Shown: piece by piece, positions 1-42,347 of the stretch
How the letters are laid out: every line of letters starts with the position of its first letter
Position numbering within the stretch: position 1 is the stretch's first letter
Assembly: GCA_015501595.1 (NCBI GenBank)
Contig: JADNRX010000265.1
Span: 1-64,000 of the forward strand
Direction: 5' to 3'
DNA: 64,000 nt
From: Hymenopellis radicata
Lineage: Eukaryota > Basidiomycota > Agaricomycetes > Agaricales > Physalacriaceae
The notes under the pieces: generated by a model
What the model saw: only the letters and a program-made list of their open reading frames with translations
Databases searched by the model: none
Told to the model about the DNA's origin: nothing
Program-made: the position numbers and the translations under genes

Positions 1-83
1 ACGGTGCACACGGAGTAACCGGGCGCCAAAATACATAATGCAGGACGCTAGGCGCTCGTCGTTCGCCTTCCTACCACCACCAT

Positions 84-640
84 CATGAAGCGGTTTCAGT
101 CGACGGCGACGCAGACTGAGTCCTCAGGCATATTCAACTCTCGCACAGAGGTTGTATCGACAATGTAACGGCAGTGCCTACAATCGACTATTGGATGATA
201 TTCAAGACCCATTCTGAGGAGCTGAGCAAGTATCTAGCCGCATATTTAGCGCAAGGTGCGAGCTTGGTTTACTTAAAACTGCGCGCTGACGAGTGCTAAT
301 CAGCGCCGTCCAACTCCCGGCCCCCGCCAGGCAGAGCTGACCCGCATCACGATTCAGCAATTCCATGAACTGTCCACCGATGTCTACGACGAGCTACTAC
401 GGCGACAAGATGAAAACGAAGGCAGGTTTAGTTTATCTCCTGTGCCTTGGTCACTTTTGGCTGACTTTACGTCCTCAGTGCCCTTTCTACCCCGCGAAGA
501 ACTCCACCCGCTGCGCAATCAGGCTAGGCAAAATCTTGCGACGCTACCAACATCTCGCTTCGAGGATCTCTCCAGCGACGTGTATTATGAACTTCTCAGG
601 CGATACCCAGAGTTTAAAGAGGACGTAAGTAAGCCATTGA
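84..640 (+). pseudogene. Broken duplicate of the 5' end of the Spa2 gene
   Basis: This stretch copies the first exons and introns of the intact Spa2 gene at 36371-39666. It starts with the same ATGAAGCGG and keeps stretches for the EELSKYLAAYLA, TIQQFHELSTDVYDELLRRQDENE and RFEDLSSDVYYELLRRYPEFKED segments, including the intron between them, so it is a DNA-level copy and not a retrocopy. It is not translatable: the first exon carries stops and indels (for example TAA near 168), and similarity ends soon after the splice donor near 627. Just upstream (about 26-46) lies GCGCCAAAATACATAATGCA, the same sequence found at the outer end of the duplicated RRM 3' flank near 39880. Basis: direct comparison within the window. 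Confidence 0.85.
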
Positions 641-734
641 TGCTTCTCTCCCTCCTCTGTAAGCACTCGCCCTCAACGCACCCCAGCCCTACGCGAATTT
701 TAGCTTCACCCAGGACCAACCAGCCTTTGGGTAC

Positions 735-1448
735 GTCCTCTAGTACTGGATTCTACAAGTATAGCAGCTTTTGTCAACTTTGCCTTGCTTGCTCAACATA
801 CACTCCTCTTCTCCTCACTTTGGAATGATTTGAAAATGGCCAACACAGGGAAAACTTTGACATCCTTATAGCCAGTACCAGTCTTAGACCTCAGCTACTA
901 TCAATACTACGTGCGTTCCGACGCGCCCGTCGCCGCCACGAAGCTACCCTACCAGCGGCTTCCAAAGTCCTTTGGTATAACCGCCGGATATCAATGCCGG
1001 AGCTTAAAGACCAGTCTCAAAAAGCCGTTGAGTCTTGAGTCTCTATGACGCGTCCTCTTCTTCTTTTCCTCGGACTGGGAAAGGAACCTATTTTTTCCTG
1101 GACGCGGTCTCTTCTCAGGTGTTCGCTATCGTGGTAAGGGAACTGCTACTATAAGCTTCGAACAGATCCTCTGCAGCGCGTGCTTGAGCTTAGTCAAGAA
1201 AAACTGGCGGGCCGATCGCTGCTTTCGCTACTTGCAAACAGTGACAAAGGAGGTATCTTCCTCGTAGAGTATAAATACGGACTTCTCTTCGTCTTCGTAC
1301 TCGATCTCTTCTCGTCGTGTTATCGCATCCTGCAAAAGCAAACACCACTGCCATCGCAATTTGTACGTTCGGTTTCTCCGCTTCATCTGTGCTCATCTCA
1401 CGCATTCATGTACAGGACGGTGGGCCAGGCTCGTTATCTCCTCGTCCG
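735..1448 (+). repeat. Duplicated 5' flank of the chitin deacetylase copies
   Basis: No gene is supported here. The stretch is a diverged copy of 24170-24750, and of the flank upstream of the intact chitin deacetylase (about 43940-44400, opposite strand). Shared landmarks are ACTGGATTCTACAAGTA at the left edge, the CTCGGACTGGGAAAGGA box, and a run ending in GAGTATAAATACGGACTTCTC that resembles a TATA region. It probably represents the old promoter of the chitin deacetylase gene, now in front of a dead copy. Confidence 0.7.
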
Positions 1449-1450
1449 GC

Positions 1451-2349
1451 ATGTTTATCCCTATCGAACTTTTTCTGTTGCATTCTTCATAATTCAGGCG
1501 AAGGGTGCTCCGTTCTCCCTCTTCCTTTAGAGGATAGAGCGACTGCCAGTGTTATCACATCCTGCAGAGCACCAAACACCGCTTCTATCTCTCTTTTCGC
1601 TCAACTCGTCTCAGTCGGTGCACAAGACGACGGGTCGTACATCTACATGAACGATATCATGAAGACACTCAGAGACGATGATGCGAAAGCGACGTCTTCT
1701 TCAACGGCAACAACTGTACGCTAAAGCAAGCCGATAATGGGCGCCCATACCTTAGTTGACTGCATATACAACTCAGCCGCCCCCACTCGCGTAAAGCTTG
1801 CCTTCGATAACAAGCACCAGGTCGCGTCTCATACCTGGAGACACGCCCATCTATCACAGTTGTCTGAATCTGACTTGCAGGCAGAGTCCACCAGGACCGA
1901 AGGTATGCGTTCATCCTTTAGACGGCTGTACCATCATTCACGAAAGCAACAGATGCTATAAAGAAGATCACCGGCGCCCAAGTGGCGATGACTAGACCTC
2001 GTACGTTGAAGCGTCCTCCCATGCTGCCTGTTAGCTTTATACGTTATTAGCCTTCGGCGAATACAACCCTCTCGTTCTAAAAGTCGCCGGAGATCGCGGA
2101 CAGACGCTCGTCAACTGGGACTTCGATTGGTGATTCCGCCGGGGCATCGAAGACGAAGTCTATGCAGGAATACGAAGCGGTAGCTCGACGGAGGCCTAAT
2201 AATATTCTCGCTTTGAATCATGAGACGTACGAGGGTACTGCGTGAGTAGTTTACCGTTCAAGATTTTGCAACATTTCGTATCGAGGTGTCTTGGGCAGCC
2301 GGCGTATAATGGGACGCCTTCGCCGCGCGACTCTTCGCGGAGGTGTTGA
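1451..2349 (+). pseudogene. Chitin deacetylase (CE4) pseudogene, copy A
   Basis: A decayed copy of the intact chitin deacetylase at 42872-43881. Recognisable pieces in order are MFIPIEL at the start, DDGSYIYMND (first CE4 motif, with the usual Pro replaced by Ser), CIYNSAA, the metal-ligand motif SHTWRHAHL, and the 3' end encoding LGQPAY and SSRRC. Frame breaks are visible: a stop early in the signal peptide (near 1481), a lost base before the NGNN segment (near 1691), and no usable continuation through the fourth motif. The intact family removes acetyl groups from chitin in the cell wall; this copy cannot make an enzyme. It lies 180 bases upstream of RRM copy 1, in the same orientation. Confidence 0.8.
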
Positions 2350-2529
2350 AATGGCAGTGGCGCGTTAATTGAACGCGTGTAATTTGATGTTTCCTTCACT
2401 CTGTACTCTTGAAAATATTGAGAGAGTTTCAAGCTTCTTGTTCGTTGGTATATTTTATGGACTACATGTGAACTTTCACGGCGTTACCCGTTATGCTAAT
2501 CCGCCGGCCCGCCCTGCCTCTGCATCCCA
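2350..2529 (+). promoter_or_regulatory. Duplicated spacer and promoter between chitin deacetylase and RRM genes
   Basis: The segment contains CGCGTTAATTGAACGCGTG followed by a run ending GTTTCAAGCTTCTTG, a TATATTTTATGGAC box, and CACGGCGTTACCCG shortly before the RRM ATG. The same order recurs at 25580-25680 and 29193-29345, and in reverse at 42139-42347. It is the likely promoter of the RRM genes because it is the only non-coding sequence kept next to more than one open copy. Function is inferred from position and conservation only. Confidence 0.5.
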
Positions 2530-3305
2530 ATGTTCTCCCTCTTCGCCCGCGGTCTGCCCCGCACCACACTCTCCGCCATTCATCTATGCGCGCGCGGTGT
2601 AGCATCAGAGGTCGGCCCGACCAACGCTGTCTACGTTCACGTCGTTCAGAAGATTGACAACAAAATCTCGCACCAGGCCCTCAAAGAGGGCCTGGCTGCC
2701 AACTTTGGTCCCGTCGAGCACCTCTGGCTGCAGCTTCCCACTGGCAGCAATTGCATTGTCGCCTTCCAGGAGCAAGCCGACGCTCAGAAGCTCATGGACA
2801 AGGGGACACTAGAGATCCCTCCAGCAATGCTGACCGCCCAAAACTTCGCCGGGCCTCGCAAACCCGACATGAGGACCCAGTCCAAACTCCCGGTAGACGA
2901 CTCCCAGAAAGCCCCGAAACTTATCTTGCGTAACGTTCCTGCACGATTTGGTATTTCAGCACCCGAGATCGCCAAGGTGTTTGGCCAATTCGGCAAGGTC
3001 AGCGTTAGACATCGTACGTGGCTTCTCTCCCTACTTTCGTGTTTCCTTCCAGCTTACCAGACTCTTAGCCACTTTGCGCGGATACCCTCGCTCTCTTGCC
3101 TTCGTTTCCTTCGAAACTCAGGAAGCTGCCGACAAGGCTCTGGAGACAATTCGGTCAGAGGAGGGGATCATCATTGAGGGTACCAGACTCGATGCAACTT
3201 ACTACATCCGGGAGGAGCGCCCCACCCCAAAGTACCCTGGTATGTCTTCGATACTCCTTCCTTCGCGTCGCTAATCCTGCTACAGTGCTCACTGCCGAGT
3301 CTTAA
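2530..3305 (+). CDS. Two-RRM protein with mitochondrial-type presequence, copy 1
   Basis: Three exons (2530-3013, 3069-3239, 3286-3305) join in frame to give 224 residues. The N terminus (MFSLFARGLPRTTLSAIHLC, then ARGVAS) is Arg/Ser-rich, lacks acidic residues and resembles a mitochondrial targeting peptide. Two RRM-like units follow. The first is about residues 36-100 (NAVYVHVVQK ... CIVAFQEQADAQKLMDKG). The second is about 135-205, with LILRNVPARFG as RNP2 and RSLAFVSFETQEAADKAL as RNP1; the intron lies between the two strands of this domain. RRM proteins bind RNA, so a role in mitochondrial RNA metabolism is an inference. Three other intact copies are in the window (27607, 29701, 42138). 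A homologue outside the window could not be named. Confidence 0.75.
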
Positions 3306-3747
3306 ATTGGGGCCTGTTGATGTACGCGCCGTCTAGGCATGGTCTCCTAGCTCTTGACGTGACTTATTAGATGGCGCTCTACGTTGATGCGATATGTACC
3401 GCTTCGCGTTAGGGCGAGGGTGCGCGTGTTTTCTTATAAAGGGGCCAATGAATTAAGACTTTAAAGCTTACGAAGAACCCGTTCAGTAGTGCTCGTCGAC
3501 GCGCGCAGCTTCGGGATTTCGCCGAGGTAGTACTCGAGATGCTACGAGGGCTGTATACGTTCAACAATCCCGTCGTAGAACCTCCCAGGAGGGAATACAA
3601 CTTCTAAAATGTGTTAATAATGATACAAACAATGATATCCCAGATACAGCAAGAGGATAGCTAGCTATCAAGTCCATATACATTATGCTATGAGAAAAGA
3701 GATTCAAATTTGTTGACGCAAGAATCAGGATGCGTGTCTACACAAGA
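3306..3747 (+). repeat. Duplicated RRM 3' flank, then an unassigned spacer
   Basis: To about 3488 this is the RRM 3' flank shared with copies 2 and 4: a CTCCTAGCTCTTGACG region, then TTATAAAGGGGCC, ending at AACCCGTTCAG. From there to 3747 no gene or repeat can be supported; the stop of the neighbouring mannosyltransferase lies at its right edge. Confidence 0.6.
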
Positions 3748-5534
3748 TCAGTAAGTCACTGGCACGCAGCAGTTCATACAAAGGATTTGCGTACCGAAGG
3801 AATCGTTCGGATCACATGAGCATCGTCCAGCGACCCATTGATCCCCTTGTGGACAGTGTTGAAAGTGTTCATGTCGATATCCAATATCGCGAAAGAAATG
3901 AATCTGGTCGCGTCGGGCAAATAGCGCTGCAGCAATGGAATGTACGGGTGCGTCTCCCCATCGCTGTACATTCGTGTCTTAACACTCGAATATCCTTGAG
4001 CATCGATTAAGCGCACCTCGTAATAGAACCCTCCCTTGTTCTCGAGGTAGTCGAAGAACGCCTGATATGGTTCTGAACGCCAAAAGTCCAGATCGGCAAT
4101 CTCGAAGTTGCTCCAGACTATTCATAGTACGAGGTTAAAAGGATCCGCCTCAGAAGACCAGTGAGAACTTACAGTGACATCTATTGTAGGTCGCACCGCC
4201 ATCGTTAGACACGAAGTCCATCGCGTTTTGAGGATCTACATGTTGCGGGTACAGTGCAACAAACTCTGCCTCTGGTTGAGAAATAGTGGCGGGACGTTGA
4301 GGTGCATATAATCACCTTTAACAGCACTCCACAGAGATGGTATTGTCGCTTCCCATTCTAGTAACGATATAGTGAAACCTTCCAGAGGTCTAGTAAGTAG
4401 TAAGAATCGACAGTCAGGTCCAGGACGCACCGTAAATCTTGTCATTGTCTTGCATGAACCGGAAAGGATCGTATTGCAAGTCGCAGAAGAACTTGACATC
4501 AGGTCTATCTCCTCGTCAGCCTTCCACATAATTTTGCGACTCTCTCTGAGGACGTACTCCACTCTTTAAACCCAAAGACGTCAATGTTAATCAAAATCAC
4601 AGGAACTAGCACTCTTACCTCCAGTAATACCGATATGGTTGGAGCAGTTCGTGTTGAAAGAAAAACTGCACACCCACGAAGACAGTCAATGGATTGTAGC
4701 GCGTCCGTGATTAAAAAACGTACCCCAGAATTAAATCGACACATGTTGCGGTACCTAATCATTCACAAATGTCCCTCAGTTGCCACCAAGCTGCTCGCTA
4801 TGAATACCGCTTACGATACGCTGCCTATTGGCAATCGATCAACAATCAGAGAAAAGAGGAGTCGGTATCGAGGCGCACCTCCATAAATGATTCGCTGTGC
4901 AACCATCTTCGACCGACCAGATTTGGCTCTATCCTCGTCAATCCAGTCCGGCTGGAGCCAATGCTCAGACGGCACCAATCCGAACTCCAGCGGTGCACTC
5001 GTCAACACGCTCACACGTCTATAAATGGACATCAGAACTTTCTCATGACAGTGCGCACTAGACGGATAAAACGTACTGTTTGAACTCCTCTGTGAAGGGC
5101 TCGTCGTTAAGCAATACCCATGGGTAGTTGAACCGGTGATTGAAGCGATCCTCGACGGACTGCATACTGGCGACAACACCGTTGACGTCTTTATTTCTGC
5201 ACAACATCACGAACGTGGCATTTGCGCGCTCGGAGTCGTTCATCGGTGGTAACGCGGTGCTAGGAACAGATAGCGACTGCGGTGGAGCCATGAGAGCGCC
5301 TGATGTAGGTCTGTTCACTAAGTCTGCCAGTTTATCGTCTCCCAAAGTAGAATCGCCTTGGGATGAAAGAATACCGTAATCCTTCCAGGTGACTGATACG
5401 ATGTAGTGGATGCATATCTACGTCCGGCTGAGCGAGTAACAGAGACACTCCATAGAGGCACTCACTACGAGCACAAGCACAACAGCGATATAGCGTCGTG
5501 GATTACCACCGGGGATGGGGAGCGACGCGCCCAT
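3748..5534 (-). CDS. Alpha-1,2-mannosyltransferase, GT15 (KRE2/MNT1/KTR) family
   Basis: A type II Golgi membrane enzyme of the family that transfers mannose from GDP-mannose onto O- and N-linked glycans. The start is the ATG at 5534: the first exon encodes MGASLPIPGGNPRRYIAVV, and an intron ending at CGTAG joins it to ICIHYIVSV, completing one N-terminal membrane anchor after a short cytosolic tail. The lumenal domain shows family blocks in order: NATFVMLCRN, VASMQSVEDRFNHRFNYPWV, CRFNSG, SNFEIADLDFWRS, GGFYYE joined by splicing to RWGDAPVHSIAAALF, HFFRDIGYRHEHFQHCP, and a Cys-rich tail ending at TGA 3748-3750. About eight exons with introns of roughly 50 bases. No frame break was seen. The nucleotide-binding and metal regions are inferred from the family. 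Confidence 0.88.
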
Positions 5535-5694
5535 TGAAGAAAAGAACAAAAAACGAGAGGATGCGGAAGAGAACAGAGATGAAAAGCTCGGTCATCGCAT
5601 TGCAGCTAAGAATATGTAGGCCCAGCTGCGGACCGATTGCCAAAAATGCAACGGAGGCTTTTAGCACGTTTTTAGATCAGGATATGAATAGCCG

Positions 5695-8737: not shown

Positions 8738-10242
8738 ATGAAGTCTTCCGTCGTTGCTCTCTCCCTTGTTATCCTGTCGGCATCTACTACTTTCGCCGCT
8801 CCGTTGGGTGAATATCTTCTACTACTCTCTTATCGACTTGTTCGTCTGATGCGTACCTAGGCGCAACGAAAAGTCGATCAAACATGCTCACAACTTTCTT
8901 CGATGAGGAAATGTACACGAAGAAGGACAACGTCCCTGAAGGCTAGTCACTTCCTCTTCTGACCATTCTATTCAGAGGACTAAAATGAACGCACAGAACG
9001 TTCCAACATGCTGACAACTTTCTTTGACGAAGAGATGTACACCAAGAAAGACACAGGTTAGTTTGTGCTTTGCTTTGAGTTAACGCTCCGGTTCTGATTC
9101 TTGTCAGACTCTGCTCTCGGACGTCGCTCAAGTTCCAACGTGCTTACCACTTTCTTCGATGAGGAGATGTACACCAAGAAAGATTCCGAATCGGGTTGGT
9201 CTAAGCCATACCTCTTTCTGTGCACTTGATCTAAACACTCATTTACAGACGTTGCGCGCCGGGCAAATACGCGCACCGAGTTCTTCGATGAGGAGATGTA
9301 TGCCGATGAAGACTCAGCAGGTATGTGTGCTTGTCTACTATTCGCGAAAAACTCTCGCTGAACGCACTGACAGCTTCAGATGTTGAGCGCCGCACAAACA
9401 TGCTTACAACGTTCTTCGATGAGGAGATGTACACCAAGAAAGATTCCGAATCGGGTTGGTCTAAGCCATATCTCTTTCTGTGCACTTGATCTTAACGCCC
9501 ATTTACAGATGTTGCGCGCCGGGCAAATACGCGCACCGAGTTCTTCGATGAGGAGATGTATGCCGATGAAGACTCAGCAGGTATGTGTGCTTGTCTACTA
9601 TTCGTGAAAAACTCTCGCTGAACGCACTGACAGCTTCAGATGTTGAGCGCCGCTCAAACATGCTTACAACGTTCTTCGATGAGGAGATGTACACCAAGAA
9701 AGATTCCGAATCGGGTTGGTCTAAGCCATATCTCTTTCTGTGCACTTGATCTTAACGCCCATTTACAGATGTTGCGCGCCGGGCAAATACGCGCACCGAG
9801 TTCTTCGATGAGGAGATGTATGCCGATGAAGACTCAGCAGGTATGTGTGCTTGTCTACTATTCGTGAAAAACTCTCGCTGAACGCACTGACAGCTTCAGA
9901 TGTTGAGCGCCGCTCAAACATGCTTACAACGTTCTTCGATGAGGAGATGTACACCAAGAAAGATTCCGAATCGGGTTGGTCTAAGCCATACCTCTTTCTG
10001 TACACTTGATCTTAACGCTCATTGACAGATGTTGCGCGCCGGGCAAATGCCCTCACCACGTTCTTCGATGAGGAAATGTACACAAGGGAAGCCGACTCAG
10101 ACCTTCCAGGTTTGTGGCAAGCTTCATTGTTTGGGTCTTTGACTGACATTGAAACGCAGAGCGCCGCGAGACTCAGGAACGCTCGAACATGTTGACAACT
10201 TTCTTCGACGAGGAAATGTATGAGAAGAAAGACCTTGCATAG
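8738..10242 (+). CDS. Secreted repeat-peptide precursor: 11 FFDEEMY units, one per exon, with dibasic sites (Kep/RiPP-like)
   Basis: Twelve exons join to 300 residues. Exon 1 (8738-8807) encodes a signal peptide, MKSSVVALSLVILSAS then TTFA/APL. Exons 2-12 start at 8861, 8997, 9108, 9249, 9380, 9509, 9640, 9769, 9900, 10029 and 10160, and each carries one repeat with invariant FFDEEMY. Type A units read SNMLTTFFDEEMYTKKD; type B units read ANTRTEFFDEEMYADED. They are separated by GRR, ARR or ERR, typical Kex2 sites, so the product should be cut into 20-25-residue peptides in the late Golgi. All introns are phase 1 and every internal exon is a multiple of 3. Intron 2 needs a GC donor at 8942; without splicing there, translation stops after one repeat. 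The layout matches Kex2-processed repeat proteins and dikaritin-type RiPP precursors, but no UstYa-like enzyme is nearby. The mature product is unknown. Confidence 0.85.
9249..10028 (+). repeat. Three tandem 260-base units (type B exon, intron, type A exon, intron)
   Basis: The type B exons start at 9249, 9509 and 9769 and the next unit at 10029, an exact 260-base period. Exons and introns are nearly identical between units, differing only at scattered bases (for example CGCACAAAC versus CGCTCAAAC). This shows recent whole-unit duplication or gene conversion, not convergent exons. Confidence 0.95.
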
Positions 10243-10498: not shown

Positions 10499-11452
10499 TC
10501 AAGCGCGGTTCGCAATTTTCTTCTCTCTGGCCACACTATCCTCGGATTCATGGGAATGAATCGATCCGCGGTCAGCAGAGGTCTTCTTGGACTTCTTGCC
10601 CAAGAGGAACATGATAAGAGCACCGATAAGGGCACCCCCGACGGCGCTTCCTACGGCAGCGCCGGCGATGGCACCAGCCTTGTTGGAGCAGGTGGCGGCA
10701 GTCGACGAGGCGGCCGAGCTACTGCTGGACTCGCTCTTGACGTTAAAAGTCGTCTCCGGGATCTCATCTATTTCTATGAGCATCACAGATTGTTGAGACA
10801 TCGCACACTTACCGGAAGCCCCGACGAGCTTTGCAGCGGTGTAATTGAATGTACCGCCGGTGACGACTGGGTCGGTGAACACCCAGTTGGGGAGGGCAGT
10901 GTCGTAGGGCATAGTCTCGGCGATATACCTGTGCATAACCTGGTCAGCACGTAGTCAGATCTTTCAAAAGAAAGGCGCTCACTTGACTCCCGTAATGTTG
11001 CCACAGTTCGTGGTCCAGGAATCCCATCTAACGTGGTGTCATGAGCATGCGATAATCACGGCGAGGGAAGCACTTACGTGGGCCAAGTATTGCTGCTATA
11101 CGACTGACATGCAGAGCATCCGGACACCAAGGTGTAGAAAACTGGGTTGCATCGCAGGTCATCGGCTTCATCCGCCGTGGGATGTCGTACTCAGTCTGTC
11201 CACTGAGGCTCGGATACGGCGAGTCCTCCGGCATATCTTTGAACATCGCGTAAGTGTACAGCTCTAACGATCAGCGATGAACGCCTCACATCCTCCCCCG
11301 ACCATCAGAGACGCGATGTAGTAGCAGGGGCTCTTGCCATCGTCAGACGTCAAGTCGAAACCATGGGCACTGCACATCGCCGGGGAGTCAGCAGACACCA
11401 TACCAGCGACGGACAAGACGGCAGCGATGGCGGTAGCGCTAAGCGAGAACAT
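10499..11452 (-). CDS. Secreted, C-terminally anchored Cys-rich protein (basidiomycete family), apparent one-base shift
   Basis: The start at 11452 gives a signal peptide (MFSLSATAIAAVLSVAGMVS) followed by DGKSPCYYIASLM. Later exons give NPVFYTLVSGCSACQ, WPTWDSWTTNCGNITGVK, IAETMPYDTALPNWVF and a Ser-rich stalk, then a helix (AGAIAGAAVGSAVGGALIGALI) and a basic cytosolic tail ending IANRA. The SPC, SxCxxCQ, WxxWxxxC pattern is typical of a widespread, uncharacterised mushroom surface-protein family. The EYDIP block and the DEADDLRCNPVF block are in different frames; one extra base in the three-base run at 11179-11181 would join them. The gene is either mutated or affected by a consensus error. 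It is convergent with the repeat-peptide gene. Confidence 0.7.
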
Positions 11453-11942: not shown

Positions 11943-12655
11943 ATGAACTCCTTCAAGAGCTGTGTTACCCTGCTTTTCGGCGCATCCTTGTTTGCTCTCG
12001 TCGCAAGCGCCCCCGTCGAGGAGTGAGTGTCCACCAGCGAAGTTTGTCCTTTCCTAACCATCGGATACCACAGTATCGAGGCGCGCGTGCTGCCTTCCGG
12101 ACACCCAGTCATCGACAACAACTTTTTGGTAAGATTGCTTCTTCACTGTCGCCTCCCCGTCGTCGTCTGATCAAATTTCTTTAGTCTGAGTATGGTCTGA
12201 TCACGTCTGGCTATGTCGTCGAGGTATACTTCACTCGATATTCCTCAACGCTGCCGGAAAACTAAGGCTCACCCAGACCGCAATCTACCCTTCTGGATTC
12301 AGTATTCCAACTGAGACCATTACCGCGTGAGCACTCTGATACCGACGCATGGACACTGACGAAAGAAGGTCATCCTTTCAGCCTTCCGTCCGGATACAGC
12401 GTGGCGTGGAATGGCGTCTTCGACCCCGAGGGCGAGACGGTCTCCTTCTTCCCAGAATCCGTTCTGGAACCAGTTGAACTTCAAGACGACACTTCCACTG
12501 AGTCTCAGCCGGGAGCCCCGTCTAATACCGCCACCAGTTCCGCTGCTTCGAGCACTGCCAGCGCTGCGTCGAGCTCAGATTCCAATGCAGCTGGAATGTT
12601 GAAGCCCTCGCTGGGTCTCGTGCTCGTTGCCGTTGGAATGAGTCTTTTCATGTAG
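11943..12655 (+). CDS. Small secreted protein with Ser/Ala-rich stalk and GPI-type tail
   Basis: Five exons. Exon 1 encodes a signal peptide (MNSFKSCVTLLFGASLFALV then ASAPVE). The mature part has short blocks IEARVLPSGHPVIDNNF, SEYGLITSGYVVE, TAIYPSGFSIPTETIT and SGYSVAWNGVFDPEGETVSF. It ends with a Ser/Ala/Thr-rich linker, an SNAAG-type omega region, and a hydrophobic tail (LGLVLVAVGMSLFM) with no basic residues after it, the usual GPI-anchor layout. The introns after GAGGA, TTTTTG, GTCGAG and ACCGC all keep frame. Function is unknown. It lies between the other surface protein and the IGPS gene and is transcribed toward the latter. Confidence 0.75.
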
Positions 12656-12902: not shown

Positions 12903-13733
12903 TTACCAGGCCAAAAGCTCCCGAATGAAAGTCGAAGTATTCTCTGCCTTCATCAAAGCTTCTCCAATCAACACTGCCCTTACTCCTTCATTTTGATACG
13001 TCTGCACGTCTTTGGGGTTCGAGATGCCGCTCAATGCGCACAGGATCACGTCTCTCTCTTTTACCATCTCCACCAGGCGGCTCGTGGTGCCCATGTCTAC
13101 CTGGAAATCGTGCAAGTTTCGGTTGTTAACACCGATCACCTTGGCCCCAAGACCAAGGGCGACCTCCATCTCCTTCGCGTTGTTCACTTCCACCAGAGGC
13201 TCCATTCCCAGTGAGAGCGAGTATTGATACAACGACGTCAGCTGCTCCTGCGTCAGCATCGCGACGATCAGCAGGACAGTATCTGCGCCCCACAGACGCG
13301 CCTCGGCGATCTGGTATTTGTCGAATATAAACTCCTTCCGCAAAACGGCAGGTCTATTGGGCACGTTGTCGATGGCTTGCCTGGCGAGCCGCATGTCCAG
13401 CAGAGACCCCTTGAACCACGTTGGCTCGGTAAGGACGGAGATGGTGGATGCGCCAGCTTGTGCATATGTGAGCGCCTGTACTGCAGGATTGATGGTCATA
13501 GCGATAGGGCCTTTGGATGGGCTGGCACGCTTGATTTCGGCCATAAGAGAGACAGAGGGGGATGAGCCAGGATTTTGTTTCAGTCTGTCGACGAAGGAGA
13601 TGAGTTGGGGAGCCAGACCCATCGATAGGTAGGTGTCGAGCTCTGAAGGAGTCGTGCCAGGCGTGGTAGACGCCAGCTCTACGTCCTTGGCTCGCTGAGC
13701 ATAGATTTTCTGCAGAATAGAGGGGGCGGCCAT
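12903..13733 (-). CDS. Stand-alone indole-3-glycerol-phosphate synthase
   Basis: One open frame of 276 codons without introns. It covers a full IGPS TIM barrel: the catalytic block [24 protein letters not shown], the Lys-bearing [53 protein letters not shown] and AVLIGEALM. The enzyme turns carboxyphenylaminodeoxyribulose phosphate into indole-3-glycerol phosphate, the step before tryptophan synthase. In most fungi this domain sits between glutamine amidotransferase and PRA isomerase in one TRP1/trpC protein; here neither neighbour domain is present within 800 bases on either side. All catalytic motifs are kept, so it is probably functional, either as a second copy or as a split pathway gene. 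Confidence 0.88.
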
Positions 13734-14540
13734 TGTCGCAGATGTTTCCTTGGATCGCTACTTTCCAAGTTGCACAATGACGGTCAGCTGTAACCTTATA
13801 ACTCGGACTTAACACGGCAATATACCTCCGAAGGACGGTCTCGCTCGGGAGATGGGCGGCGGTTCAGTGGGGCTACTCATTTTAAAAAATATCCACGGTA
13901 GAGCCAAATCTGGGGTTCTACGCTTTATCTACTACGCGAAATCGCGGGCGTGGAAGAAATTAAAGAATGAGCACGTGATCCGGCGACCAAACTTGAAAAA
14001 ATTGCCGGTTACTAAAGTTGCACTTGGCCGATGACACTGTCAATAGCACCCTTCTCTCGAGGCTCGGAGGTCGCGCGTCAGTCGCGGCTCATCCCACGCG
14101 CCCTTCAATGGGTAGCAAAACGCCCGCTACTAGCACGGGGGCCTGCCTTTATCTGCATCTCTCCAGACCCAAACCAGTACAGTGGTGGTCGTCACCCCGT
14201 ACGTCAGCCGAACATCTACGTCTTGCGAGGACAATATTCAAGAATTAGCAGGACTCTCTGCTCGCCGAATACAATATCTGCTTTGGAAGTGCTGCCGGCG
14301 TGACCGAAAAGTTTCCGGACTTGAATACCGCGGAACGAGCGAATTATATGTTGGTGCATAACTTGACCTATGAAAGGATTCCAACTCAAGTGCTCTTAGA
14401 GTAGGCATGAATCGAGGAAGAGGACGGGTATCATACCGCAACGATCGCCGGGCAGCTGCGCTCTATCCAGCAAGTCTGTCTTCAATTGATCCTGACACAA
14501 CAGTTACTCACAATTACACGTTCTTTTAGCCTCTCCTTGG
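13734..14540. other. Intergenic region, promoter of IGPS and possible coding remnants
   Basis: It contains the divergent upstream region of the IGPS gene and a GAGCACGTGATC site near 13969. From about 14286 there is a stretch on the plus strand readable as FGSAAGVTEKFPDLNTAERA then NYMLVHNLTYERIPTQVLLE. It could be an upstream exon of the small open frame at 14541, but no start or clean joint was found. Confidence 0.35.
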
Positions 14541-15455: not shown

Positions 15456-16822
15456 ATGATGGCGCCCCCACTCCTCATACTCGTCGTCTCCCTGTTCATC
15501 CACCACGCGGCCGCTCACCTCCTTGCGCGCGCCAACCACACCGAGGGACATTGGATCGCGGCTTGGGCGTCCATGCCGCAGCTAACGGAACCAGCGAACC
15601 TGCCCCCAGCGCCCTTCAACACGTCCAGCGGTGTATTCACCAACGCCACCCTCCGGCAGACCATCCACGTCACCGCGCCCTCGTCACACATCCGCTTGCG
15701 TTTTTCAAACGCCTTTGGCACGACGGATTTGCCCATCACGGCCGTGACCATCGCGCGCCCGCTCAACGGCAGCGCTGGGAGCAGCTCCATCGACACTGGC
15801 TCGCTACAGAACGTGACATTCAGCGGCTCGACGTCGTTTACAATCCCTAATGGAGCGCTAGTTGTCTCCGACCCCGTCGACCTGGACGTGAAAGCGCAGA
15901 GCGAGCTGACGGTAAGTATGTATTTGGCGCACGGCCAGGCGGGGAACGCGATTACGAGCCATCCCGGAAGCCGCACGACGATGTGGATGACGTTTGGAGA
16001 CTTGACGCGTGCGCAGAACGTGTCCGGGGGGTCGACGGCGAGTGTAGCGCATTGGTGAGTACGCCAGTTCGTGTTCTACGCGTCATTTTAACCCGAAATT
16101 GTAGGTACTTCCTCAGCGCGCTGGAAGCGTGGGTCCCGCCCGCGCATAGCACGTTCGCGATTATTGGGGACAGCATCACAGATGGGCGGGGCAGCGACGA
16201 TAACAAGAATAACCGGTGGCCTGACCAGCTCCTTGCTCTCCTCCAGTCATCCTCGAATACGTCTATCATCGCCATCGCTAACCAAGCCGCCGGTGGGAAC
16301 CGCGTCCTCGCTGACATCCTAGGGCCCAACGCCCTCGGCCGCTTCGACCGGGACGTCCTCGCCCAGTCCGGCGTGAAATACGCCATGATATTCGAAGGCG
16401 TAAACGACATTGGCGTCGCCGCCTCCACCGATGCGGCACAGCAGGCCATCGGCGACGCGCTTATCGCCGCGTTCAAGCAGCTCAGCATCCGCTCCCGCGC
16501 GGCGGGGATACCCTTCTTCGGCGCGACGATAACGCCGTTCTGCGAACCCGGTTGCACGACAAGTATACAACCGTACTCGACGCCGCTGAGGGAGGTGACA
16601 CGGCAGCGCGTGAATGCATGGATTAGGGATAGCGGGTGGTTTGATGGTGTGGTGGATTTTGACGCTGTGACGAGGGACCCGGCGGATGTGGCTCAGCTGA
16701 GGAAGGAGTTTAATTCGGGAGATTATCTGCATCCGAATGTTGCTGGGTATCAAGCGATGGCAGCGGCGTTTCCTGTCGAGTTGTTTGCGCAGTGGAATGG
16801 TGGCGTGGATGGATGGGTGTAA
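15456..16822 (+). CDS. Secreted SGNH/GDSL-type hydrolase
   Basis: Two exons joined by an intron at 16055-16104 (codon TG|G for Trp). The ATG at 15456 was chosen because it begins a signal peptide, MMAPPLLILVVSLFIHHAAA; an upstream in-frame ATG would bury it. An N-terminal beta-rich domain has many N-glycosylation sites (NTS, NAT, NGS, NVT, NVS). The SGNH domain follows with block I IIGDSITDGRG (Ser nucleophile), block II Gly in NQAAGGNRVL, block III Asn in FEGVNDIG, and block V DYLHPN (Asp and His). Such enzymes deacylate esters of lipids or polysaccharides outside the cell. The chemistry can be predicted, the substrate cannot. Confidence 0.9.
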
Positions 16823-17105: not shown

Positions 17106-18122
17106 ATGCAGCGAGTCGCCCAAATCCAAGAGCGGGAGATCCATAAAGTCCTCTTTCCAAGTGCGCCTATCTCCGATCGTCGTTACCAGATCTAACTGCC
17201 GTCCAGCCGTTGGGAGCTTCTTACCTTTGCTTGAGGCAAAAAAAGAAGCTATCCTAAAGACGCCCAAGAGAACCTTTGCATACGGGCCTACACCTCGGCA
17301 CAAGGTATAAAATTCCGGTCAAATTATGCTTCCTGTGTGTTGACACCCGCCAGTTGGACATATACTACCCGCCAGAGTCTTCCTTGGAGGGGCAAACGAA
17401 GATCTTGGTCTTTTGTTACGGAGGTGGCTTCACCTCTGGCTCACGCACGCTTCCCGCCCCCGCTGAGCTCGCCTATGGGAATCTGGGGATGCACTTCTCC
17501 CGAACAAGGCTTCATCACCATCATTCCCGATTACAGACTCTCCCCAGAGGTAAAGCATCCCGAACAAGCTGCCGATATTCGAGATGCGTTGTTGTGGGTC
17601 GTCGAGAACCCTCAGAGTCTTCTTTTCAACGGTGTGACGAACCCAGACATAGATTCCCTCTATGTCATGGGACATTCCGCCGGGGCCGTTAATGTCTTCA
17701 CCATGCTGGCGTTGCCAGAGCTTTACTCAGACGTTCTTCATCCCAAGATCGGAGGCGTCATCCTTTTCTCTGCGGCGTATACATATGACGCCACCAATCT
17801 CCGCACCGTTCAGGCTGGTACCGTGAAGGAATACTTTGGAGGAGAGGCCACCTCCAAATTGCCTTTGTCCCTCCTTCAAGCCGCAGACGCAAACCGTGTG
17901 GCGTCATTTCCACGAATCCTTCTTGGAGTGTCAGAAAGGGATCCCCAGTCTTTCCTGGATGGGTCAAAGATATTCTCAGATGCACTTGTCGCTCGTGGGG
18001 TGAAGCACGAGGAGTTCATCGCCCAAGGTCATAATCATATCAGCGTAACGTTCTGTCTGGGAACCGGCGAAGGCGAGGATTGGGGTGCCGATGTGGCGAG
18101 GTGGATTTCGAGTACGGCTTGA
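17106..18122 (+). CDS. Alpha/beta hydrolase (Abhydrolase_3-like), apparent one-base shift
   Basis: Exon 1 starts at 17106 (MQRVAQIQEREIHKVLFP). Introns follow at a GTGCGC donor and again before LDIYYPPESS. The core shows VFCYGGGF (oxyanion hole, HGGG-like), IIPDYRLSPEVKHPEQAADI, the nucleophile elbow MGHSAGAV, IPRILLGVSERDP (acid region) and AQGHNHISV (catalytic His), ending RWISSTA. Family members are small lipases, esterases or arylformamidase-like enzymes; no signal peptide is seen, so it is probably intracellular. YGNLGMHFS and EQGFITIIPDYRL are in different frames; removing one C from CCC at 17499-17501 restores the expected reading. A consensus error is as likely as true mutation. Confidence 0.8.
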
Positions 18123-27185: not shown

Positions 27186-27606
27186 ATGAATGAAGCATTT
27201 CGTTTTATGAAAACCCACTTCGCTCCCGTCCGCCAGCGGCCAGACTGTCCCCGATTGATTCTTTGCCTCTCACTATGATGGGTCAACAAACGAGTGCAGC
27301 GCATTCTGGCGTGTCAGAAGCTCGCGTGGACTGATTCGAAGGCCAGATAAGTATCATGGCCATAACCTGTGTTTCCATTAGCGAGAGAGGCATCGAGCAT
27401 GTACTCACCTTCAAAACATTCTGTTGTAGTTATGTATTACACCTATAAATCGATGTCGACAAGAAAGGTTTGTGCCTCGCCGCTTGTCGGCCCATGCCCA
27501 ATCAAGTATATTTTATGGACTACACCGTCACGTGAACGCGTGAAGCTTCACGGCGTTACCCGCGTTATGACTAATGCGCCTGCCCGCGGCAGAGACAAAG
27601 AACCCA
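27186..27606. other. Spacer upstream of RRM copy 2
   Basis: Only the last ~100 bases are shared with other copies (TATATTTTATGGACTACA, then CACGGCGTTACCCG). The longer upstream promoter seen before copies 1 and 4 is missing, so copy 2 may depend on different control sequences. Confidence 0.5.
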
Positions 27607-28402
27607 ATGTCCTCCCTCTTCGCCCGCGGTCTGCCCCGCACCACACTCTCCGCCATTCATCTATGCGCGCGCGGTGTAGCATCAAAGGTTGGCTCGACCA
27701 ACACTGTCTTCGTTCGCCTCGATCAGAAGGTTGACAACAAAATCTCGCACCAAGCCCTCAAAGACGGCCTGGCTGCCAACTTTGGTGCCGTCGAGCGCCT
27801 CTGGCTGCCCATGCCCCGTGGCAGGAATTGCATTGTCATCTTCCGGGAGCAAGCCGACGCTCAGAAGTTCATGGACAAGGGGACACTAGAGATCCCTCCA
27901 GCAATCCTGACCGCCCGAGACTTGAACGCGCCTCGGCTGTGGCCTCGGGTGTGGACGACATCCCAGTTTAAACTCCAGGCGGTAGACGACTCCCAGAAAG
28001 TCCCGAAACTCATCTTGCATAACATTCCTGTACAATTTGGTATCTCAGCACCCGAGCTCGCCAAGGTGTTTGGCCAATTCGGCAAGGTCAACGTTAGACA
28101 GCGTATGTTGCTTTCCTCTCCCCTACTTTCGTGTTTCCTTCCAGCTTACCAGACTGTTAGCCACTATGAGCGGATACCCTCGCCCTTTTGCCTTCCTTTC
28201 CTTCGAAACTCAGGAAGCCGCTGACAAGGCTCTGGAGACAATTCGGTCAGAGGAGGGGATCATCATTGAGGGTGCCAGACTCTATGCGAATTACTCCATC
28301 CAGGAGGAGCCCCCCGCCGGAAAGTACCTTGGTATGTTTCCTCTTCGATACTCCTTCCTTCGCGTCGCTAATCCTACTACAGTGCTCACTGCCGAGTCTT
28401 AA
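27607..28402 (+). CDS. Two-RRM protein with mitochondrial-type presequence, copy 2
   Basis: Same three-exon layout as copy 1. It starts MSSLFARGLPRTTLSAIHLC and keeps both RRM-like units (TVFVRLDQKVDNKISHQALK; LILHNIPVQFG with RPFAFLSFETQEAADKALE). It ends with the tiny last exon LTAES. Splice sites are intact (donor GTATGT after AGACAGC, acceptor CTGTTAG). Distinct features are a longer linker (RLWPRVWTTSQFKLQ) and substitutions throughout, so it is not a recent identical copy. An open frame despite divergence argues for selection. The 3' flank leads into the AADC fragment at 28677. Confidence 0.75.
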
Positions 28403-28676: not shown

Positions 28677-28910
28677 GCCAAGCTCCTTGGGCTCTCTCCC
28701 GATTTCCTCGACACCGACAATCTCCCGGAGACTAAGCAAGTTGGTATGTTCACTTTGACAGTAAAACCGCGTCTTCTCGTCTACTTGCGAAGTTTAGTCA
28801 AAGACCATTCGTACCTTCGCGTCCACGTCGATGCTGCATGGGCAGGTATCGCACTCAGCTGCCCAGAATACCGCCAAGTCTGCTTCCTGGACGAAATAAA
28901 CGAGTTCGCG
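28677..28910 (+). pseudogene. Internally deleted AADC fragment
   Basis: Begins in the exon for AKLLGLSPDFL, jumps directly to DNLPETKQV, continues through the intron and the exon for VHVDAAWAGIALSCPEYR and LDEINEFA, and then breaks into chitin deacetylase sequence at GGGGCATCGAGGAC. The retained intron shows it was copied as DNA. It is not an expressed gene. Confidence 0.85.
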
Positions 28911-29192
28911 GGGCATCGAGGACGAAGTCTACGCAGGAATATGAGGCGGTAGCTAAACGGAGGCCTAATAGTATTCTCGCTTTGAACCATGAGACATACG
29001 AGGGTACTGCGTGAGTAGTTTACTTTTCGTGCCTATTTCGACGTCTCATACTTCTCCAGGCACACTGTTCTTCCCAAGGCAATTTATTCGTTAAAGTCGG
29101 CAGGGTATAGGCTGCTCACTGTGGCGGAGTGTCTTGGGCAGCCGGCGTATAAAGGGACGCCTTCGTCGCGCGACTCTTCGTGGAGGTGTTGA
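28911..29192 (+). pseudogene. Chitin deacetylase 3' fragment, copy C
   Basis: Carries the last two exons only. ALNHETYEGTA is followed by a good intron; the last exon encodes HTVLPKAIYSLKSAGYRLLT, VAECLGQPAY and SSWRC with no frame break. It is fused upstream to the AADC fragment, so there is no start or catalytic core. Downstream is the shared RRM promoter. Confidence 0.8.
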
Positions 29193-29363: not shown

Positions 29364-29700
29364 TAGAGAATATTTGGAGCGCCCATTTTCACGATTCCGA
29401 ATATTTCCGAAAATCCTTGAGCCAAATTTTGGTGATTCCATATTTGGGTGAGACGTGAAACACACCAGATGTTGCGCGTTATTGTGCACCTCCCCAGGTT
29501 CTGCCTTAGCCAGTGATTGGCAGACCAGCATGGTTATATGATATATGCTTGTAATCCAAAAATTGTGGAAGGAGGAGGGGACAACGCGTGGAGAGGACGT
29601 CGACATTGCCTTGGTGGACCCTAGCCATCATTTGGCCAGTATTCGGAAACCACCGAATATGACGAAACACCAAATTTTGGGTCGCTCCAAATATTCTCTA
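29364..29700. mobile_element. 337-base MITE inserted directly before the RRM copy 3 start codon
   Basis: Perfect 18-base terminal inverted repeats (TAGAGAATATTTGGAGCG at the left, its reverse complement at the right), with TA at both outer ends as expected for Tc1/mariner-type insertion at TA. It has no coding capacity. The sequence left of it matches the promoter of the other RRM copies up to GTTATGCTGATCCGCC, and the base right after it is the A of the RRM ATG. The element has therefore replaced or displaced the 5' UTR. Confidence 0.85.
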
Positions 29701-30482
29701 ATGTTCTCCCTCTTCGCCCGCGGTCTGCCCCGCACCACACTCTCCGCCATTCATCTATGCGCGCGCGGTGTAGCATCAGAGGTTGGCCCGACCAACGCTG
29801 TCTTCGTTCGCCTCCGTCAGAAGGTTGACAACAGAATATCGCACCAAGCCCTCAAAGAGGGCCTGGTTGCCAACTTTGGTCCCGTCGAGCGCCTCTGGCT
29901 CGCTATGCCCGCTGGCAGCAGTTGCATTGTCGTCTTCCAGGAGCAAGCCAACGCTCAGAAGCTCATGGACAAGGGGACACTAGAGATCCCTCCAGCAATG
30001 CTGACCGCCCAACACTTCGCCGTGCCTCGCAAACCCGAGACGAGGACCCAGTCCAAACTCCGGGAGATAGACGACACCAAGAAACGTCCGAAACTTTACT
30101 TGCATAACGTTCCTGCACGATTTGGTATTTCAGCACCCGAGATCGTCAAGGTGTTTGGCCAATTCGGCAAGGTCAGCGTTAGACATCGTACGTGGCTTCT
30201 GTCCCTACTTTCGTGTTTCCTTTCAGCTTACCAGACTCTTAGCCATTATGGCCGGATACCCTTGCCCTTTTGCTTTCGTTTCCTTCGAAACTCAGGAAGC
30301 CGCTGACAAGGCTCTGGAGACAATTCGGTCAGAGGAGGGGATCATCATTGAGGGTCGCAGACTCGATGCAACTTACGACATCCAGGAGGAGCGCCCCGGC
30401 GGAAAGTACCCTGGTATGTTTCTTCTTCGATACTCCTTCCGTCGCGTCGCTAATCCTGCTAGTGCTCACTGCCGAGTCTTAA
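29701..30482 (+). CDS. Two-RRM protein with mitochondrial-type presequence, copy 3
   Basis: Three exons as in copy 1, starting MFSLFARGLPRTTLSAIHLC and ending LTAES. RRM units: NAVFVRLRQKVDNRISHQAL and YLHNVPARFG with CPFAFVSFETQEAADKALE. The last intron has lost a few bases but keeps an AG acceptor (CTGCTAG). Closest to copy 1 by eye (KPETRTQSKL linker). The start codon directly follows the MITE at 29364-29700. In-frame sequence also extends upstream through part of the MITE to 29545, so an N-terminally extended product is formally possible. Confidence 0.75.
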
Positions 30483-31035
30483 ATTCGGGCCTGTTGATGT
30501 ACGGGCTGTTCATTAGTGTACCCCGCTGGCGCCAACTTAGAGGTTATCAAAAAACGCGCCGCATTCGTGGACCCTTCTCGGTAGTCTCGTTACTCAGACT
30601 CTATGAGATGAAGGAAGACAGTTGTGCTGAGTTATATCAGTTTAGTGAAGCGCGTTTCACGCGTCAGAGTCGGTCAGACATTAATGAGTCTCAGGTTCGT
30701 TACTGTTCATCACTCTCCTCTTCCATGTCATTGTCATTATTCAACCTCATAAACTTGAAGATGCCCGCACTCCCACCAGATCCACACTAAGGCAAAATGA
30801 CAGCGGCGGGATGTGGGTATATCGGCAGTCAGCCTTCGTAATGCCTTTCACGTCATAGTCAGGCCATACCTCTTCAAATGACCTATAGCATGACCTAATG
30901 CCTACGAAGCTTCATATAGCCTGCTTTATCCTGTCCATCCTGTCGTCCATCATCCTGCTTCCCCACTTCCAATTCTTCCGCAAGCCCTTGAGGTTTATAA
31001 TCTCAAGCTCATCTTCCCATACAACTCTACACAAC
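30483..31035. other. Intergenic; dioxygenase promoter
   Basis: No independent gene. The dioxygenase frame is open up to an ATG at 30898, whose product would add a hydrophobic leader (ACFILSILSSIILLPHFQFF); it may be a real alternative start or 5' UTR. Confidence 0.4.
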
Positions 31036-41366: not shown

Positions 41367-42138
41367 TTAGGACTCGGCAGTGAACTCTGTAGTAGGATTA
41401 GCGACGCGAAGGAAGGAGTATCGAAGAAACATACCAGGGTACTTTGCGGCGGGGCGCTCCTCCTGGAGGTAGTAAGTTGCATACAGTCTGCCACCCTCAA
41501 GGATGATACCCTCCTCTGACCGAATTGTCTCCAGAGCCTTGTCAGCGGCTTCCTGAGTTTCGAAGTAGAGGAAGGCAAAAGGGCGAGGGTATCCGTTTAA
41601 AGTGGCTAAGAGTCTGGTAAGCTGGAAGGAAACACGAAAGTAGGGAGAGAAGCCACGTACGATGTCTAACGCTGACCTTGCCGAATTGGCCAAACACCTT
41701 GGCGATGTCGGGTGCTGAGATACCAAATTGTGTAGAAATGTTACGCAAGATAAGTCTCGGGACTTTCTGGGAGTCGTCTACCGCCCGGAGTTTGGCCTCG
41801 AGACGAGGCACGGCAAAGTGTTCGGCGGTCAGCATTGCTGGAGGGATCTCTAGTGTCCCTTTGTCCATGAGTTTCTGAGCGTTGGCTTGCTCCTGGAAGG
41901 TGACAATGCAAGTGCTACCAGAGGGCATGGCCAGCCAGAGGCGCTCGACGGGACCAAAGTTGGCAGCCAAGCCCTCTTTGAGGGCTTGGTGCGAAATTTT
42001 GTTGTCAATGTCAACCTTCTGACGGAGGCGAACGAAGACAGCTTTGGTCGGACCGACCTCTGATGCTACACCGCGCGCGCATAGATGAATGGCGGAGAGT
42101 GTGGTGCGGGGCAGACCGCGGGCGAAGAGGGAGATCAT
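41367..42138 (-). CDS. Two-RRM protein with mitochondrial-type presequence, copy 4
   Basis: Same three-exon gene in reverse. It starts MISLFARGLPRTTLSAIHLC at 42138. First RRM: KAVFVRLRQKVDIDNKISHQ, with two extra residues. A shortened linker follows (FAVPRLEAKLRAVDDSQK). Second RRM: LILRNISTQFG, then RPFAFLYFETQEAADKAL. It ends FTAES, with TAA at 41367-41369. Splice sites are conserved. It shows the most differences from copy 1 yet remains open, including in-frame insertions and deletions only, which suggests a constrained protein. Its upstream promoter is the duplicated 42139-42347 segment, back to back with chitin deacetylase copy D. Confidence 0.75.
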
Positions 42139-42347
42139 GGGGGTTCTTTGTATGCAGCGGGCAGGGCGGATTAGCATACATAAGGGGTAATGCCGTAAAA
42201 GTTCACGTGTAGTCCATAAAATATACTATTACCAACGAGTCCGACAACCCAACGAACAAGAAACTTGAAACTCTCTCGATATTTTCAAGAGTACAAAGTG
42301 AAGGAAACATCAAATTACACGCGTTCGATTAACGCGCCACTGCCATT

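Follow-up and report, generated by a model that had tools for sequence, protein, structure and literature searches.

Gene structure of the repeat precursor and its surroundings

The DNA analyzed here, referred to as the window, is a stretch of 64,000 nucleotides on contig C591 of the Hymenopellis radicata genome (75.5 Mb, 1405 contigs). Six-frame translation of the window placed the heptapeptide FFDEEMY 11 times on the forward strand, spread over its three frames with core starts from 8896 to 10201, and never on the reverse strand. A scan for donor and acceptor sites gave one consistent model, in which all of these repeats belong to a single precursor gene on the forward strand (8738-10242) whose 12 exons encode a product of 300 aa:

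8738..8807, +: exon 1, start codon and predicted signal peptide MKSSVVALSLVILSASTTFA-APLG (hydropathy peak of 2.77 near the N-terminus)
8861..8941, +: exon 2, repeat 1 (SNMLTTFFDEEMYTKKD), with KSR before it and a GC-AG intron after it
8997..9056, +: exon 3, repeat 2, with a single R before it (EER)
9108..9194, +: exon 4, repeat 3, RR site (LGRR-SSSN)
9249..9320, +: exon 5, repeat 4, B type (ANTRTEFFDEEMYADEDSA), RR site
9380..9454, +: exon 6, repeat 5, A type, RR site
9509..9580, +: exon 7, repeat 6, B type, RR site
9640..9714, +: exon 8, repeat 7, A type, RR site
9769..9840, +: exon 9, repeat 8, B type, RR site
9900..9974, +: exon 10, repeat 9, A type, RR site
10029..10109, +: exon 11, repeat 10 (ANALTTFFDEEMYTREADSDLPE), RR site
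10160..10242, +: exon 12, repeat 11 (RR-ETQER-SNMLTTFFDEEMYEKKDLA) and stop codon
9137..10080, +: array of tandem 260-bp units composed of two exons and two introns each; 520 bp are missing here in the allele on contig C565

The 10 internal exons (60-87 b) all have lengths divisible by 3, and each of the 11 introns (50-59 b) lies in phase 1 and has a 3' AG; the 5' end is GT in 10 of them and GC in intron 2. This 12-exon model for a 300-aa product bears out the proposal of a previous sequence-only reading that each of the 11 repeats occupies one symmetric phase 1-1 exon. As a control for exon chaining, the same rules were applied to 57 other stretches of the window, which yielded 0-4 consecutive phase-1 symmetric internal exons, compared with 10 at the precursor locus. 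Retention of any single intron among introns 1-10 leads to an early stop, and if intron 11 is retained the frame is shifted and the next stop is codon 302. In vivo, the transcript would presumably be spliced as in this model. At the acceptors of exons 6, 8 and 10 (9380, 9640 and 9900), a second AG is present 6 bases upstream in the same phase; thus, small isoforms would be possible.

Besides the precursor, 19 other open frames of the window (9 + 10) were compared with Pfam, and the matches included the following:

within 3774-5417, -: GT15 mannosyltransferase
12903-13757, -: IGPS
15851-16822, +: GDSL lipase
17235-18122, +: alpha/beta hydrolase
elsewhere in the window: PLP decarboxylase, short-chain dehydrogenase, MRG and chromo domains, amidase

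Two Ser/Ala-rich open frames adjoin the precursor (10499-10954, -; 12266-12655, +); neither had a Pfam family above cut-off, and they may encode surface or membrane proteins. An open frame with LFARGLPRTTLSAIHLCARGVAS was observed in four copies, at 2500-3274, 27571-28402, 29542-30790 (+) and 41367-42225 (-). It showed no Pfam family in the one copy scanned and possibly represents a dispersed repeat or gene family.

Core conservation, a presumed second allele and homologues

The FFDEEMY core is the strongly conserved part of the precursor, with variable flanks. The 11 cores of the window allele have five DNA spellings and no amino-acid difference. Summed over pairs of the 11 copies, 90 synonymous and 0 nonsynonymous differences were counted in the core (these being sums over related copies, not independent events), and pN in the flanks was 0.23 for the six codons before the core and 0.25 for the four codons after it. 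Similar values were obtained for the subset of exons 2, 3, 4, 5, 6, 11 and 12 (core pN 0; flanks 0.22 and 0.25). The units 9397-9656 and 9657-9916 are identical at 260/260 bases, introns included; thus, part of the array is recent, and part of the core identity comes from duplication.

A second contig, C565 (84,690 b), matches the window region at 97.3% over 5496 b and at 96.8% over 4867 b, and carries a precursor locus near 23-24 kb. The IGPS and amidase genes are present on it at 98%, in the same order and on the same strand as on C591; IGPS has an additional weaker match (68%) on C1061. Precursor and amidase lie about 48.5 kb apart on C591 and 40.9 kb apart on C565, and the two contigs therefore also differ by insertions and/or deletions. 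We infer that they are the two haplotypes of one dikaryon. The allele on C565 is located as follows:

4645-5629 of the extracted C565 piece: seven-repeat allele, placed by alignment to the window

It encodes 202 aa, is open over all exons and has seven repeats, six with FFDEEMY and one with FFDEDMY. The previous claim that FFDEEMY is identical in all 11 copies while the flanks vary thus holds for the window allele but does not extend to the C565 allele. When the two alleles are aligned, the only internal gap spans 520 bp, as much as two units of 260 bp, and the parental sets of chromosomes appear to carry different numbers of copies (11 vs 7). The frame is kept when repeats are gained or lost because whole symmetric phase 1-1 exons move together with their introns, and the precursor offers a clean example of copy-number change at the DNA level without damage to the frame. 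As a more tentative extension, which we are inclined to doubt, exchange of 260-bp units in this exon-modular precursor, and possibly exon skipping, would vary the number of peptides in frame, and the two nuclei of the dikaryon would make different doses (11 vs 7) of a lineage-confined orphan signal peptide.

Genome-wide, the degenerate core DNA was found at 18 sites (11 on C591, six on C565 and one on C1167), and the reversed pattern at none. With up to two mismatches, 48 sites were found, compared with 33 in the corresponding control; only the 15 exact ones among the 48 (C591, C565 and C1167) were used. The C1167 locus (within 1-4000, minus strand, start codon near 1247) begins with a similar, signal-peptide-like sequence (MKSFLVAVFPAVSVCAAPF) and has a phase-1 intron and one FFDEEMY exon (SELLATFFDEEMYAHED), followed by worn repeats. 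Read by eye, GT is missing at the expected donor after the first repeat and the frame meets a stop, suggesting a decayed paralogue, of which the genome search revealed no second copy. On C490, a match of 56 b at 88% hinted at a third member of the family, which was dropped, as no repeat or core was seen by eye in the three forward frames of the 3-kb locus.

The sequence-only reading had proposed that the FFDEEMY product be compared with protein collections. Query sequences of 300, 202 and 104 aa were compared by word-based search with about 5.8 billion proteins and gave, among the matches listed, a single homologue: CPB85DRAFT_1249737, a hypothetical protein of 167 aa from Mucidula mucida, a species that we take to belong to Physalacriaceae. 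Considering the sensitivity of word-based searches and the poor annotation of such genes, a single homologue does not show absence elsewhere. Plasmid DNA, phage and PDB searches, poor places for a fungal gene, returned no match. The Mucidula protein resembles the window product in having five FFDEEMY cores, the same C-terminus (ETQERSNMLTTFFDEEMYEKKDLA) and identical joins at three places (DTDSALGRR, ESDVARRAN and DLPERRETQER). On the other hand, its annotated model begins inside a repeat, lacks a signal peptide and contains one stretch that mismatches the repeat, which may be a misread exon with a kept intron. The model also appears to take an upstream AG of the type seen at exons 6, 8 and 10, with A-S added before DVERR. 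Without a start, it would probably fail the published screens for KEX2-processed repeat proteins (KEPs) that need a signal peptide. This suggests why such genes go unnoticed: gene prediction has difficulty with repeats carried by very small exons, as the Mucidula model illustrates.

Predicted processing and alternative explanations

The N-terminus of the precursor, a putative signal peptide, is hydrophobic (hydropathy 2.77) and ends in TFA-AP. Nine RR sites are present in the product, seven of them directly before the [S/A/T]-N of a repeat; that of exon 4 lies two residues further up and that of exon 12 five residues further up. Repeats start with R-[S/A/T]-N in 10 of 11 cases, the exception being exon 4 (RR-SSSN). 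The repeats are thus mostly parted by RR, as claimed before, with those of exons 2, 3 and 12 directly after a single R. In-silico cutting at RR with removal of R gave 10 fragments: nine acidic peptides of 22-25 aa (predicted pI 4.05, or 4.25 in the last of them) and one of 55 aa. The latter is the first fragment, in which two repeats stay together because RR is missing before the repeats of exons 2 and 3, unless Kex2 also cuts at single R there. The KEP pipeline of Le Marquer et al. sets a minimum of three repeats and of four fragments upon cutting at KR/RR (PMC6339444); here, we found 11 near-identical repeats in the window allele and seven in the other allele, and nine RR sites between repeats that yield the 10 fragments. 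Pfam matches to the 300-aa product were rejected, as all of them were below their cut-offs (best E 0.0021). A profile search of the genome for the P-domain revealed one P_proprotein (Kex2-type P-domain) match above cut-off, on C963.

Taken together, the product is probably a secreted, Kex2-cut multi-peptide precursor. As the best explanation of the whole, we consider it likely that the gene encodes a KEP giving rise to linear acidic peptides with a role in signaling or biotic interaction. The precursor would enter the secretory pathway through its predicted N-terminal signal peptide. Kex2 would then cut after RR, and perhaps also after the single R preceding S-N in exons 2, 3 and 12, and Kex1-type trimming would leave linear peptides of acidic character, such as SNMLTTFFDEEMYTKKDSESDVA and ANTRTEFFDEEMYADEDSADVE. 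The average masses calculated for these two are 2688.9 and 2584.6, respectively, and those for the TNML, SSSNVL and ANALTT forms 2702.9, 2831.0 and 2665.8. Many copies per transcript would raise the peptide dose, and the array would grow or shrink by exchange of the intron-bearing 260-bp units. FFDEEMY, kept unchanged, is likely the recognized part, and the most plausible role would be that of a lineage-specific extracellular signal or biotic-interaction peptide. Several points count against this explanation: RR is lacking before the repeats of exons 2 and 3 and lies five residues further up in exon 12, one core of the C565 allele is altered to FFDEDMY, and the synonymous counts come from related copies, with two of the units being recent duplicates. 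In addition, KK is a lesser Kex2 site according to Le Marquer et al. (PMC6339444), and cutting at TKK-D would split the A peptides.

Other explanations differ in whether the product exists, whether it is cut and what the peptides do. We give hardly any credence to a chance or decaying array without product: the paralogue on C1167 is decayed, but all exons are open in both alleles of the precursor, the core of the window allele shows no amino-acid change despite synonymous change, and a homologue is present in another species. An unprocessed secreted repeat protein or effector, whose repeats would function jointly like those of the SP7-like family in arbuscular mycorrhizal fungi, seems decidedly improbable. 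That family combines a signal peptide with imperfect hydrophilic repeats that contain a conserved island (PMC11333574), a general layout that the window product resembles, and two exons have no RR site, whereas the nine RR sites, seven of them directly before [S/A/T]-N, and the lack of any Pfam family above cut-off in the product argue for cutting. An AlphaFold2 model of the Mucidula homologue (pLDDT 51.6, pTM 0.18) points the same way, but it says little, being made without an alignment from a partly mismatching protein. Somewhat less improbable, though still unlikely, are structural or surface peptides like Rep1 of Ustilago maydis, which would be released by Kex2 and act on the hyphal wall rather than in signaling. 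Here the processing is the same as in the KEP explanation preferred above and the role alone differs, so that the probabilities of the two overlap. Kex2-cut multi-peptide precursors with a role at the hyphal wall do exist (Rep1, PMC6339444), and a bulk product fits the high copy number; on the other hand, the acidity of the predicted peptides (pI about 4.05 in eight of the nine) and the strictly kept seven-residue core, which suggests specific recognition, speak against this role.

The sequence-only reading had left the choice between Kex2-released peptides and RiPP cores, with the aromatic ends of the core (FF...Y) as a reminder of cyclized dikaritins. The Kex2-processed precursor agrees with the sequence, whereas dikaritin-like cyclization is not supported, and the FF...Y ends count as weak evidence. 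A six-frame search identified at least 23 UstYa matches in the genome, none of them on C591 or C565; this search also covered the window beyond the 19 frames given to Pfam, among which no UstYa was found. We recognized no Pfam match among the window neighbours as another known RiPP enzyme. In borosin RiPPs, a peptide N-methyltransferase domain is fused to the core; no Pfam family above cut-off was present in the 300-aa product. We also scanned nine stretches of about 10 kb around 17 of the 23 UstYa matches (those on C734, C951 (2) and C1016 (2) and at C758:44308 being left out) for exact repeats of five-residue words. A repeat precursor was detected in one of the nine (C500) and a single repeated word in each of two others; FFDEEMY repeats occurred in none of them. 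The C500 pair is located as follows:

C500:25648-26011 (-) and 28829-29071 (+): KR-repeat precursor and UstYa match

The C500 precursor has seven near-identical KR-AGPENYEEPYSDLT repeats about 2.8 kb from the UstYa match, works as a positive control for detecting a precursor near UstYa, and is a candidate for a dikaritin-type cluster in a basidiomycete. It resembles the window precursor in its near-identical repeats and dibasic sites, but differs in its neighbouring UstYa match and in having all repeats in one open stretch; thus, not every repeat precursor encoded in this genome has one exon per repeat. A dikaritin-like RiPP at the window locus, with Kex2 release followed by UstYa-type oxidative cyclization of the aromatic core, is very unlikely. 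Every core contains Y, and unlinked enzymes among the UstYa matches of the genome could act on it. Nevertheless, none of these matches lies on either contig carrying the locus, a KR-type repeat precursor near UstYa was found elsewhere (C500), DUF3328 genes are near only 103 of 1680 Basidiomycota KEPs (Umemura, PMC7329392), and the agaricomycete KEP peptides detected so far in PMC9769878 are linear or minimally modified.

Comparison with known fungal repeat peptides

Multiple cores, likely Kex2 cutting and an aromatic core residue are shared by the window precursor with the dikaritins (ustiloxin, phomopsin, asperipin and victorin) and the epichloecyclins (PMC9233826), from which it differs in having no linked UstYa. 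With the Agaricomycetes KEPs (PMC9769878, PMC7329392 and PMC6339444), it has in common near-identical repeats with RR between most of them, predicted peptides of 22-25 aa, the lack of a linked UstYa match and probably also a signal peptide. According to PMC9769878, agaricomycete KEPs expressed in Pichia are cut at RR and apparently also, in the case of several products, at single arginines; the KEP peptides of Coprinopsis, Lentinula and Pleurotus make up the linear or minimally modified set mentioned above, and in Coprinopsis such peptides persisted in all kex knockouts. The same report describes no visible phenotype for six kep gene knockouts and no antibacterial activity of synthetic KEP peptides in the tests made, and its authors propose roles in biotic interaction.

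Several features set the window precursor apart from these KEPs. An XA/XP dipeptide, the STE13 signature, follows none of its nine RR sites. Neither 'FFDEEMY' nor 'FFDEE' together with 'kex2' was found in the main texts of the 5.39 million papers covered, and within that scope the previous statement that no basidiomycete peptide with this core has been described still stands. Each repeat has its own exon, whereas in the available text of PMC9769878, PMC7329392 and PMC6339444 the word 'exon' occurs 0 times and 'intron' once, on intron-less cDNA. 'KEX2-processed repeat' with both 'exon' and 'intron' was likewise not found in these papers, and no precedent for one exon per repeat was found in the literature covered. 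With C500 as the only basidiomycete gene structure compared, the exon-per-repeat arrangement may be commoner among basidiomycete KEPs. The precursor can be placed among the Kex2-cut repeat peptides known from fungi, with an unusual gene architecture, and it adds an undescribed, strongly conserved core to a large and poorly understood class of fungal secreted peptides.
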